Source: Mogibacterium sp. (GTDB lineage: Bacteria; Bacillota; Clostridia; Peptostreptococcales; Anaerovoracaceae). From it: DNA of 64,000 bases. The stretch spans positions 57,831 through 121,830 of the forward strand of contig JAFWMD010000027.1 of the NCBI GenBank assembly GCA_017510725.1, written 5' to 3'. Each line of letters opens with the position of its first letter. The first letter of the stretch is position 1. Shown piece by piece: positions 49,734 to 53,095 of this stretch. A program made the translations under genes and the position numbers. Below the pieces are notes generated by a model that made no database searches, was not told the DNA's origin, and saw nothing but the letters and a program-made list of their open reading frames with translations.

Positions 49734-49762
49734 TTGACACGCAGTCATTGATTATGTTATTT
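49734..49762 (+). promoter_or_regulatory. Promoter of secG
   Basis: TTGACA (49734-49739), 17 bp, TTATTT (49757-49762) with TG before it. It starts 17 bases after the tpiA stop. Confidence 0.6.
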
Positions 49763-49765
49763 TTA

Positions 49766-49791
49766 GACGTTCGGATATTCATCCGGGCGTC
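49766..49791 (+). other. Hairpin in the tpiA-secG gap
   Basis: GACG (49766-49769) and CGGAT (49772-49776) pair with ATCCG (49781-49785) and CGTC (49788-49791) over ATTC. A weak T tract follows (TTATATTTC). It may end the pgk-tpiA message or sit at the very start of the secG message. Confidence 0.5.
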
Positions 49792-49822
49792 TTATATTTC
49801 AATTAAGTTTTTGGAGGACACA

Positions 49823-50056
49823 ATGCATACCGCTTTAATGGTAATCCTTTTGATTTCAAGTGTGGTGCTCATCGTGAGCATCCTTCTTCAGACAAGTAAG
49901 AGTGACGGACTCTCGGGTTCGATCGCAGGCGGAGCAGAACAGCTCTTCGGCAAAAGAAAGAGCAGGGGATATGACGCACTTCTCGCAAAGATCACTACAG
50001 TCTGTGCGATCGTATATATCGTCGTATCACTGGCGATCGTTGCTATTTTCAACTAA
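49823..50056 (+). CDS. secG: Preprotein translocase subunit SecG
   Basis: Small two-pass membrane subunit of SecYEG. The 77 residues have helix 1 (ALMVILLISSVVLIVSILLQ), the conserved loop SDGLSGSIAGGAEQLFGK, and helix 2 at the end. ATG 49823 follows GGAGGA; an open frame upstream crosses the promoter hairpin and is not coding. secG is often followed by rnr-smpB in Firmicutes; here a pyrophosphatase-like gene follows 44 bases later, after a CCGATC/GATCGG hairpin without a T-run, so the two are probably co-transcribed. Confidence 0.93.
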   Translation: MHTALMVILLISSVVLIVSILLQTSKSDGLSGSIAGGAEQLFGKRKSRGYDALLAKITTVCAIVYIVVSLAIVAIFN

Positions 50057-50100
50057 TTAACCGATCAGCACATGATCGGATACAGCCGGAGATCAATTAA

Positions 50101-51900
50101 ATGCTCAAGATTGTTACACTGATCTGCGCTCTGATAGGTCTCCTGACAGCTATATCGCTCGAGACCTGGCTCAGGAGCCGCATCGTCAGAAATGAAACTT
50201 CAGCAGAATCTTATGCTGAAGTCAAAAGCAGAAACTCAGAATTCTGGTCAATTCAATATGTGTCTCTACTACTGATAGTTGCACTGCTTGCAGTAGTTCT
50301 GTTTGTATTCGTAGGGCACCTGAATGCCGCTGTCTTTTTAGGGGGAGCGGCTCTTTGCTTTGTTTCTGTTGTTACCGGTGCCAGTACTGTAGTTACGGGA
50401 AGTATTGCATCTTCGTCCACAGCGGTATCCGGAGATATCAGAAATGCGCTCAAGACAGCATACAGATCATCAGCCGTGATGGGACTCAGCGTCTCTTCAA
50501 TAGCTCTGGTCGGGCTGGGAGTGCTGTTTTTCTTCCTGAAAAGAGACCAGCTTATCGATCTGGTCGCAAGCTTCGCTCTCGGGGCTTCGTTAGTTTCATT
50601 GATGATAGGCCTTTCAGGAACTGCCTTTTCCGGAGCGTATTCGCTATCGGTAAAGAGCAATGACTTTACTGACTACACGGGAATGTTTATCGGAAGCGGT
50701 GCCGACCATGTAGAGACTTATATTCTGTCCGCATGCTCTGCAGCTTTGCTGTCCGGCGTAGCTGTAGACACATCCGGCGTTATGTCGACATTCACCGCAA
50801 CATCAGCCGCAAGGTATCCGCTGATAGTAATGGCGGGAGGAATCATCGCTTCAATCATCGGAATAATGACATACAGAGGCTATGTCATTAAAAAACCGGC
50901 AGCAGGCCTCACGATAGGCAACATAATCGCGGCAGTGCTTATTGCTGCAGTTGCAGTATATTTCAGCAATGACCTGCTGCAGTCATATATATATGGAGTA
51001 TGCGTATCATTAGGTATTCTTGCTGCTCTTATTTCAGGAGAAGCATCAAAGGCATATTCGATAGACGGAGCTGTATTCAAACGCTTCCTTCCGGATGTAA
51101 AAAGTACCGGCGTCAGCCAGTCCATGATCTACAGCCTTTCAATAGGAATGATTTCGGTATTGATACCGGCAGTTTTCACAACTGCCGCAATGATACTTGC
51201 TTATAATTATGCCAGTTTCTACGGTATCGCTCTTGCTGCAGTCGGCATCAATTCAATGGCTGCAGTAAATTCCGCCGTAAGAGGTTTTTCTATCAACACG
51301 GCAAGCGCTTCAGAAATAGCTTCGGTGAGCGACCCTGAAGCCGAAAGTCCAAACCCTGCTGACGTTCTGCTGACTGCTTCAGTAAGAGCAGACTCCGTTG
51401 GTAAAACATATTCCGGTGTTGCCGCTTATGTAACACTGGTAGCGATGTATACGGCTCTTTCGGTAGTTGCGAATAACCCTGCGATCAACCTTCTGAGCAC
51501 CCCTGTTTTCACAGGAATTACGATCGGAGCGGTCATCGTTTTCGTATGCGCGGGATTGATAATCAGATCCATAAGGATCACAAGCCAGGTGCTTCGCGCA
51601 AGACTGAGTGATTCACATGACCCTGAGAAGCGAATAACAGCACTCAGAGGCCTTTCGCCGCTGTTTATTATAGCTTTTATAGCTCCGCTCACAGCAGGAG
51701 CTGCAGGAGGAGTTAACGGCCTCATATCTTTCTCATGTTCCGCATCGGTCACAGGAATGTGTGTCATCTTCGCGTTCAATAACGCAGGCAGGTATTTTGA
51801 CAGAATTGCGACCGAGACACTCGGCACTGTAATAAAGTTTATGCTGGCAGTAACACTTGTATTTGCACCGTTCTTTATGAAGTTCGGAGGCATCTTTTAG
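50101..51900 (+). CDS. Degenerate membrane pyrophosphatase (HppA) homologue, probably inactive
   Basis: A 599-residue membrane protein with about 14-16 helices that follows the H+/Na+-pyrophosphatase fold end to end. Matching blocks: AYRSSAVMGLS (120-130), FALGASLVSLM (158-168), GSGADHVETY (198-207), YPLIVMAGGIIASIIG (239-254), YGIALAAVG (374-382) and ASVTGMCVIFAFNNAGRYFD (548-567). The family's pyrophosphate sites are gone: the DVGADLVGKVE/DNVGDN loop is cut to a short linker at about 173-197; DAYGPISDNAGG is replaced near 383-405; the GDTVGDPFKD stretch is missing before the last helix (568-585). GGAG supports the start, and the frame is clean, so this is a maintained gene. Function unknown; pumping driven by pyrophosphate is unlikely. 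Confidence 0.85.
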   Translation: MLKIVTLICALIGLLTAISLETWLRSRIVRNETSAESYAEVKSRNSEFWSIQYVSLLLIVALLAVVLFVFVGHLNAAVFLGGAALCFVSVVTGASTVVTGSIASSSTAVSGDIRNALKTAYRSSAVMGLSVSSIALVGLGVLFFFLKRDQLIDLVASFALGASLVSLMIGLSGTAFSGAYSLSVKSNDFTDYTGMFIGSGADHVETYILSACSAALLSGVAVDTSGVMSTFTATSAARYPLIVMAGGIIASIIGIMTYRGYVIKKPAAGLTIGNIIAAVLIAAVAVYFSNDLLQSYIYGVCVSLGILAALISGEASKAYSIDGAVFKRFLPDVKSTGVSQSMIYSLSIGMISVLIPAVFTTAAMILAYNYASFYGIALAAVGINSMAAVNSAVRGFSINTASASEIASVSDPEAESPNPADVLLTASVRADSVGKTYSGVAAYVTLVAMYTALSVVANNPAINLLSTPVFTGITIGAVIVFVCAGLIIRSIRITSQVLRARLSDSHDPEKRITALRGLSPLFIIAFIAPLTAGAAGGVNGLISFSCSASVTGMCVIFAFNNAGRYFDRIATETLGTVIKFMLAVTLVFAPFFMKFGGIF

Positions 51901-51937: not shown

Positions 51938-51970
51938 ACGGCGGCTCTGCAGAAAGGCCGCCGTTATTTA
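51938..51970 (+). terminator. Terminator after the pyrophosphatase-like gene
   Basis: ACGGCGGC (51938-51945) pairs with GCCGCCGT (51957-51964) over an 11-base loop, followed by TATTTA. It separates this gene from butyrate kinase 2. Confidence 0.7.
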
Positions 51971-52000: not shown

Positions 52001-53095
52001 ATGAAAAACAACAGATTCCGTATATTCGTGATCAATCCGGGCTCAACTTCGACTAAGCTTGCGCTTTTTGAGAACAATATCAAGATACTCCAGACATCAG
52101 TTACACACGATGCGGAGGTCCTTAATTCATTCCCGATGCCGAACGACCAGCTCGATTACAGAATGGGAGTTATCAGGGATTTTGTTGAAAATAACGATAT
52201 AGAGCTCGATAACATCGATGCTTTCGTCGGAAGAGGCGGCGGATGTTACCCTGTACCAAGCGGTACTTTCGAAGTGAACGAGCTCCTGCTGAACGACATC
52301 AGAAATAATGTAGGAAGAACCATCCATCCGTCCATACTCGGCGTGCAGCTTGCTTATGAGATGCAGCAGAAGTACGGCGGAAGGCTGTTCATGGTAGACC
52401 CGATATGTGTGGATGAGTATACGAACGTGGCAAGAGTTACCGGAGTAAAGGGACTTGAGCGCCGGGCAGAATCGCACGCTCTCAATCTGAGAGGAACCGC
52501 GATGAAGCACTGCAAGATCCATGGCATGGATTACAGAAAATCGAATCTCATCGTAGCTCATATCGATGGCGGTATCACTATTGCAGCACAGAAGAACGGC
52601 AAGCAGATCGACTGCAATCAGGGTGCAGGAGGCGAGGGACCTTTCACTGCTACACGAACAGGTTCTCTTCCTCTCATGGAAGTGCTCGACTACTTCAAGG
52701 ATCATACCGTTGAAGAGATGCGCCATCTTTGTACCGGCACCGGCGGATTTGTATCACACTTCGGCACATCAGATGCTGATGAGGTATACATGAGGGTGCT
52801 GGACGGAGATACTGAAGCCAGACTGGTATGGGAAGCACTTTGCTATAACATTGTAAAATACATCGGTTCGATGGCTATCGTCCTGAAAGGCAAGGTCGAC
52901 GGTATCCTGATAACCGGCCGTTATACCCGCTTCCGCGGACTTATAGACTATATAAGAGAATACACGGAGTGGATTGCTCCTATCTACATCTATGAAAACG
53001 AAGTGGAACAGGAGGCCATGTGTGCCGGAGCACTCAGAGTACTCCGCGGAGAAGAAGAAGCAAAGGTATATACCGGCAAAGGTATGGTAAGATAA
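52001..53095 (+). CDS. buk: Butyrate kinase (copy 2)
   Basis: Second acyl kinase of the butyrate kinase family; 364 residues. Shares with copy 1 the start RIFVINPGSTSTKLA, HGMDYRKSNLIV, a HIDGG loop, GEGPFTATRTGSLP, GGFVSHFGTSDAD and an end reading AGALRVLRGEEE. It differs at the substrate side: VGRGGGCYPVPSG here against VGRGGSTAPINSG in copy 1, and an ITGRYTRFRGL loop. The two may prefer different acyl groups or be differently regulated (inference). AAAGGGAAG precedes the start. It stands alone between a terminator and pheS, with no ptb partner. Confidence 0.92.
   Translation: MKNNRFRIFVINPGSTSTKLALFENNIKILQTSVTHDAEVLNSFPMPNDQLDYRMGVIRDFVENNDIELDNIDAFVGRGGGCYPVPSGTFEVNELLLNDIRNNVGRTIHPSILGVQLAYEMQQKYGGRLFMVDPICVDEYTNVARVTGVKGLERRAESHALNLRGTAMKHCKIHGMDYRKSNLIVAHIDGGITIAAQKNGKQIDCNQGAGGEGPFTATRTGSLPLMEVLDYFKDHTVEEMRHLCTGTGGFVSHFGTSDADEVYMRVLDGDTEARLVWEALCYNIVKYIGSMAIVLKGKVDGILITGRYTRFRGLIDYIREYTEWIAPIYIYENEVEQEAMCAGALRVLRGEEEAKVYTGKGMVR

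Follow-up and report, generated by a model that had tools for sequence, protein, structure and literature searches.

A probable non-catalytic descendant of the pyrophosphate-driven ion pump gene hppA, kept at its ancestral locus in Mogibacterium

Membrane pyrophosphatases (mPPases) have been studied as single-protein primary pumps. A gene of the gut bacterium Mogibacterium sp. raises the question of what is left of such a pump, and what it could be for, once the residues that hydrolyse pyrophosphate (PPi) have gone. The gene lies in a 64,000-nucleotide stretch of contig JAFWMD010000027.1 (hereafter the window), which belongs to an assembly of 2.4 Mb in 91 contigs, 84.5% complete and 5.7% contaminated. 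A first-pass annotation of the window had described the product as a maintained mPPase homologue stripped of its active site, and had suggested that it could be a regulator, a partner of an active PPase, or a channel or transporter. We found no specific report of catalytically stripped mPPases or of Mogibacterium pyrophosphatases in the open-licence literature, and nothing specific there on secG together with a translocating pyrophosphatase.

Results

The stripped gene occupies positions 50101-51900 of the window on the forward strand, as do all features given below with coordinates. It starts with ATG and encodes 599 amino acids, and a Shine-Dalgarno-like CCGGAG (50086-50091, read from the sequence) lies nine bases 5' of the start codon, in agreement with the open frame and ribosome site noted earlier. 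The protein matches the Pfam family H_PPase (PF03030) with 148 bits (E 5e-43; cut-off 29.7), the family against which a profile search had been proposed. A 22-row family profile, compared with the PDB, matched the PPases of Vigna radiata (V. radiata; E 1.5e-72) and T. maritima (E 3.4e-68, over profile positions 16-568). Homology to mPPases covers most of the length of the protein, and the blocks that the first-pass annotation had quoted as marks of the H_PPase fold align with those of the family. Averaged hydropathy predicts 16 hydrophobic, putatively transmembrane (TM) segments in the window protein and likewise in active relatives, consistent with the proposed 16-helix scaffold. The 11 NCBIfam PPase equivalog models that match the protein all do so far under their cut-offs; the best of them gives 167.3 bits (cut-off 546) and scores the intact protein of a congener at 981.6 bits.

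For the hydrolytic centre we used a list of 16 residues from the available sections of PMC6882861, with the residue numbering verified against its Table 3; taking N12.53 as N534 is our own placement. When aligned with 58 active-type proteins, the window protein proved ∼20 residues shorter in loop 5-6 and ∼33 shorter in loop 15-16, and the DNAGGIAEM motif of loop 11-12 was overwritten; among the cytoplasmic loops of the hydrolytic centre, 5-6, 13-14 and 15-16 are cut and 11-12 is overwritten. The remnant of loop 5-6 (residues 177-196; 50629-50688) lacks V. radiata positions 257-273 and keeps D6.39 (D191), the overwritten loop 11-12 corresponds to residues 399-430 (51295-51390), and residues 563-574 (51787-51822) are what remains of loop 15-16. 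Because of these changes at most 2 of the 16 residues are left, D6.39 and, depending on the alignment, D15.61. The earlier description of three substrate loops lost or replaced thus holds, with 14 to 15 of the 16 residues gone, and at the ligand positions, where contrary evidence had been looked for, the alignment predicts no intact Asp/Lys pocket. The funnel residues R5.50 and D11.50 are also replaced. The same is seen across the set, each of 37 near-full-length stripped proteins keeping 1-4 of the 16 residues, as against all 16 in 57 of the 58 active-type proteins in which catalytic residues were checked (the remaining catalytic-type matches rest on score). The one exception, with gaps at the C-terminal sites, is apparently L002, truncated where its contig ends.

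Since some acids persist near the old site (D191, D567), one could suppose that the protein is still a pyrophosphatase with relocated catalytic residues. We regard this as extremely improbable: in nearly all stripped copies the loop deletions have removed lysines 15.64 and 16.38 along with most of the acids that bind Mg, K5.58 is replaced in the window protein, and of the 29 positions at which at least 97% of 33 main-clade rows agree, just two, R122 and D191, are charged. Two divergent copies, in G198 and G197 (L122:3971-5467 and L084:3971-5767), lack ∼32 residues near loop 9-10/TM10. The former is down to 499 amino acids, and the latter has a loop 5-6 of nearly full length with most of its ligands replaced.

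A stripped copy is present in 41 of the 47 genomes of the genus, 37 near full length, three cut by contig ends (G209, G223, G238) and one broken (G219). Four genomes have catalytic-type hppA only (G082, 99% complete; G237, 80%; G215, 65%; G217, 68%), and two gave no H_PPase match at E 0.001 (G199, 92%; G211, 59%). G199 still has a family II pyrophosphatase domain. Among the matches listed from 349 genomes of the family and 391 of the class, the stripped form appears confined to this genus: no frame of ∼600 amino acids spanning the profile was listed outside the genus in the family, the window's copy was the only such frame listed in the class, and shorter listed frames outside the genus (e.g. 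G729; G983, G1087, G1001, G807) cover part of the profile only. Because the matches listed are the stronger ones, a weak second copy elsewhere could escape. In the listed family matches, long-coverage stripped copies reach 554-864 bits and the best active protein 505, with lower values for the cut or divergent copies of G209, G197 and G198. Seventeen loci from named records, 63-89% identical, come from MAGs of Mogibacterium sp. (goat, sheep, horse) or uncultured Clostridiales. A search of viral contigs gave two mPPase loci, and plasmid records one 23% match.

The immediate neighbourhood of the gene points to its origin. Upstream lies secG (49823-50056), which ends 44 bases before the ATG, and downstream a butyrate kinase gene (52001-53095). 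At every one of the 39 stripped loci whose upstream sequence is available, 38 retrieved ones and the window's own, secG lies directly upstream. From the match lists we selected, in genomes that lack a stripped copy, 11 annotated loci of the intact 670-amino-acid type (G082, G237, G076, G131, G160, G065, G032, G060, G174, G083, G165), two of them congeners and nine of other genera, and in all 11 the intact hppA directly follows secG. The secG linkage is therefore ancestral, and, because this slot holds intact hppA in congeners and other genera, the stripped gene is best read as the ancestral pump gene in place. The linkage, in which the first-pass annotation had found a probable co-transcription unexplained, is accordingly inherited; in view of this ancestral synteny we reject a functional link to secG and see in the linkage no clue to the new role. 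A twelfth genome without a stripped copy, G217, has the 705-amino-acid type away from secG, and none of six annotated loci of that catalytic type (G135, G169, G204, G197, G216, G217) lies beside secG; a gene of 876-880 amino acids precedes hppA in three of the six, and the product of the one that was tested proved to be pyruvate phosphate dikinase (PPDK). In G198, G200 and G201 a 670-amino-acid-type hppA lies away from secG.

Of the 40 stripped loci whose downstream sequence is available, 38 have butyrate kinase between the stripped gene and pheS, and at none of the 11 annotated intact loci does it directly follow hppA; the arrangement may reflect either one shared insertion or a functional link. 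As to the proposed co-transcription with secG, a weak sigma-70-like site (10/12 matches by pattern scan) lies upstream of secG at 49734-49763, one such site being fewer than the mean of 3.8 in shuffles. It is directly followed by a terminator-like stem (49765-49792), and a weak one lies at the 3' end of secG (50018-50037). The good terminator proposed earlier for the stripped gene stands in part: there is a G+C-rich hairpin followed by a T-rich tail at 51938-51964 (z = -3.37), but the pattern scan gave no terminator there.

We also asked how often the stripped state arose. A first four-gene tree asked for two changes to it, and several independent strippings were considered; the AU test (44 rows; G223, G238, G212, G231, G219 and G227 left out) did not reject one origin (p-AU 0.687), so one origin is the simpler reading rather than a demonstrated one. 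The protein tree, which left out L115 and L118, cannot root the stripped clade because of its long branches. G219 and G227 were joined in the four-gene tree, yet their stripped proteins fall in different groups, and either assembly is possibly chimeric or contaminated.

These results lead us to conclude that the gene at 50101-51900 is very probably an in-place, non-catalytic descendant of the ancestral hppA gene for a PPi-driven Na+/H+ pump, a sequence-based reading; for descent together with the loss of catalysis we put the probability at about 0.93. With the hppA mPPases (PF03030; V. radiata 4a01, T. maritima 4av3) the window protein shares homology, the 16 hydrophobic segments, part of the ion gate (D6.50, E6.53, S/T6.54, K16.50) and the chromosomal slot of the family's hppA. 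It differs from them in the loss of the hydrolytic centre with loops 5-6 and 15-16, in being ∼70 residues shorter, in the replaced R5.50 and D11.50, and in scoring under every matching NCBIfam PPase cut-off.

A gene stripped to this extent might be a slowly decaying, functionless relic of the pump. We calculated NG86 dN/dS for 11 of 40 copies, each against the window gene, and obtained 0.048-0.063 in six pairs (86-89% identity) and 0.070-0.115 in five more distant pairs; these values are approximate because dS is at least 1.0 throughout for the stripped gene. They are far under 1 and indicate that the stripped protein is under purifying selection, far from neutral. The values in the six close pairs do exceed those of the neighbours pgk, tpi, buk, pheS and pheT in the same pairs (0.010-0.054), as expected of a relic, although in one distant pair (L093) pheT, at 0.113, lies above the stripped gene. 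Decay would also fit the disappearance of two loops, the further reduction of the G198 copy and the broken copy of G219 (L152, G219:C155; frame 505-2175). In this last copy the opening residues, start included, are out of frame with the remaining 557, which begin near position 45, and a frameshifting deletion falls between about residues 27 and 45; the break may be genuine, or it may stem from faulty assembly (180 contigs). Against this, 40 of the 41 copies show no break, three of these being cut by contig ends, and one loop has gained relative constraint (see below). Presence in 41 of the 47 genomes together with low dN/dS speaks against simple decay, with G219 as the counter-example, and we consider the relic reading disfavoured and quite improbable. 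The earlier view of the gene as maintained is borne out with the same exception; absence from close relatives with neutral decay, which would have spoken against it, was not what we observed.

Could the stripped protein instead be a pseudoenzyme partner that hetero-oligomerises with, or regulates, a catalytic mPPase encoded elsewhere? The available sections of PMC6530997 describe mPPases as homodimers with subunit asymmetry, and a catalytic-type hppA is found elsewhere in the genome in 36 of the 41 carriers, the survey result for which the first-pass annotation had called. No catalytic hppA was found in the carriers G196 (96% complete), G206 (71%), G232 (82%), G235 (93%) and G238 (74%). In G232 and G235 the PPDK locus, the site of hppA in some other species, is assembled without hppA; the G196 contig ends right after the dikinase gene, and no dikinase match was found in the incomplete G206 and G238. 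Because hppA does not always occupy one position (in G204 it lies away from the dikinase gene), the evidence from this locus is suggestive, not proof. It nevertheless weakens an obligate form of the partner role proposed earlier, since G232 and G235 carry the stripped gene, and on these two genomes we set a strict partner of catalytic hppA aside. The catalytic copy is moreover of two kinds across carriers, the 705-amino-acid type in most and the 670-amino-acid type in G198, G200 and G201, and the stripped set shows no special conservation of the interface helices TM10 and TM13. Overall we consider a partner role unlikely. In the window's own assembly (G000) there are two closely similar catalytic-type hppA copies, perhaps a strain mixture, one (C48:271-2304) on a 3.7-kb contig and the other (C1:3-1868 with C90:1-60) seemingly divided by a contig break. 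DHHA2, the domain of family II pyrophosphatases, occurs in 42 of the 47 genus genomes, and family I pyrophosphatase was found in none of the 47.

We next considered what the stripped set has kept of the ion gate. According to the available sections of PMC6530997 and PMC6882861, Na+ is bound in mPPases by positions 6.50, 6.53, 6.54 and 16.46. Of the gate set D6.50, E6.53/6.57, S6.54, D/N16.46 and K16.50, four of five are kept or conservatively changed in the window protein and 16.46 is lost. On TM6 it retains D202 (6.50), E205 (6.53) and T206 (6.54) at 50704-50718 (roles of the positions from the same sections of PMC6530997), and the alignment places the gate lysine K579 (16.50) at 51835-51837. 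Across the stripped copies there is an acid at 6.50 in 41/41, D6.39 in 39/41, K16.50 in 36/40, S or T at 6.54 in 37/41, E6.53 in 31/41 plus one D, and N or D at 16.46 in 5/40. E6.53 is lost in nine of 41 copies, together with K16.50 in G196/G214 and G200/G201 and alone in G220/G231 and G218/G223/G238. The gate is thus not intact in the stripped set, with the 16.46 ligand mostly lost, and the joint disappearance of E6.53 and K16.50 in two groups is not what one would expect of a conserved ion path through this gate.

We compared conservation by rank only, because the active proteins come from many genera and the stripped ones from a single genus, and excluded from the counts three rows truncated at the end of a contig or stretch (L114, L115, L118) as well as the row with the frameshift (L121, G219). 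The largest gain relative to active relatives falls on extracytoplasmic loop 6-7 (residues 220-235, VAVDTSGVMSTFTATS; 50758-50805), the most shifted of 584 16-residue windows, its mean rank being 0.69 for the 33 stripped rows and 0.21 for the 31 active relatives. Among hand-drawn segments of the stripped set, this loop, TM6 and TM11 have the highest mean conservation; TM1 and residues 283-298 gained relative rank as well. The loop motif is SGVxSTFT; counted by eye, STF occurs in all but one of 37 stripped loops and in three of the 31 active loops. Codon differences in the loop among 12 close relatives are 88 synonymous to 16 replacement (whole gene, 2926 to 1101), so the constraint acts on the protein. 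In TmPPase the same loop, directly after gate helix TM6, is the element beta1-2, described in the available sections of PMC6530997 as an extension of the gate helix with control over the exit channel; by our own count from D6.50 = D243, which assumes no gap, Tm 268-277 falls on window residues 227-236. Whereas this element varies widely among active mPPases (those sections of PMC6530997; our 31 relatives), it is nearly invariant in the stripped set.

Discussion

Our results suggest that the leftover membrane scaffold, kept at the original locus in most of the genus genomes examined, has a new role. Because the PPi site is gone, the protein would not pump by hydrolysis. The reading we tentatively prefer, while holding it to be somewhat short of an even chance, is that it may be an uncoupled, passive or secondary pathway for cations (Na+/H+), or a close derivative of one, a reading favoured because selection kept acids on the pore helix together with the exit loop. 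Cations would enter the now-open cytoplasmic vestibule, pass the retained TM6 acids D191, D202 and E205 opposite K579 on TM16, and exit at the outer face, where loop 6-7, as the counterpart of beta1-2, would close or tune the mouth. In this scheme PPi would be hydrolysed by the product of the second hppA and by the soluble pyrophosphatase of family II. Slightly more speculative is the full conversion, in which a primary ion pump has become, without leaving its locus, a non-catalytic ion pathway or a gated channel whose outer gate loop is newly and strongly selected.

A close rival to the cation pathway is an extracytoplasmic sensor, receptor or membrane scaffold, which would move no ions and would use the loop 6-7 motif to bind a ligand or a partner protein. 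The constraint gained by this loop fits a binding or partner surface equally well, its rank being low in active relatives and high in the stripped set, and the loss of E6.53 in four groups of copies agrees with such a role. The buried TM6 acids, however, persist in nearly every copy and are not obviously needed by a pure scaffold, and none of the conserved neighbours (secG, butyrate kinase, pheS) points to a partner; we judge this reading rather doubtful, if less so than the pseudoenzyme partner.

Among soluble-family pseudoenzymes, the T. brucei AdoMetDC prozyme (available sections of PMC5201418) is likewise a dead paralogue kept beside an active one. The stripped mPPase differs in being an integral membrane pump homologue, with the dead copy at the ancestral locus and the catalytic copy elsewhere, and an activator role would here be hypothetical.

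For annotation, the window protein is a warning that a Pfam H_PPase match over the cut-off need not mean PPi hydrolysis. A natural mPPase without its hydrolytic centre, with gate and exit partly kept and selected in ∼40 genomes of a single genus, would allow the pumping half to be studied apart from the chemistry and would show what a pump scaffold can become. If the conversion to an ion pathway is true, these proteins would form a genus-wide class derived from mPPases.
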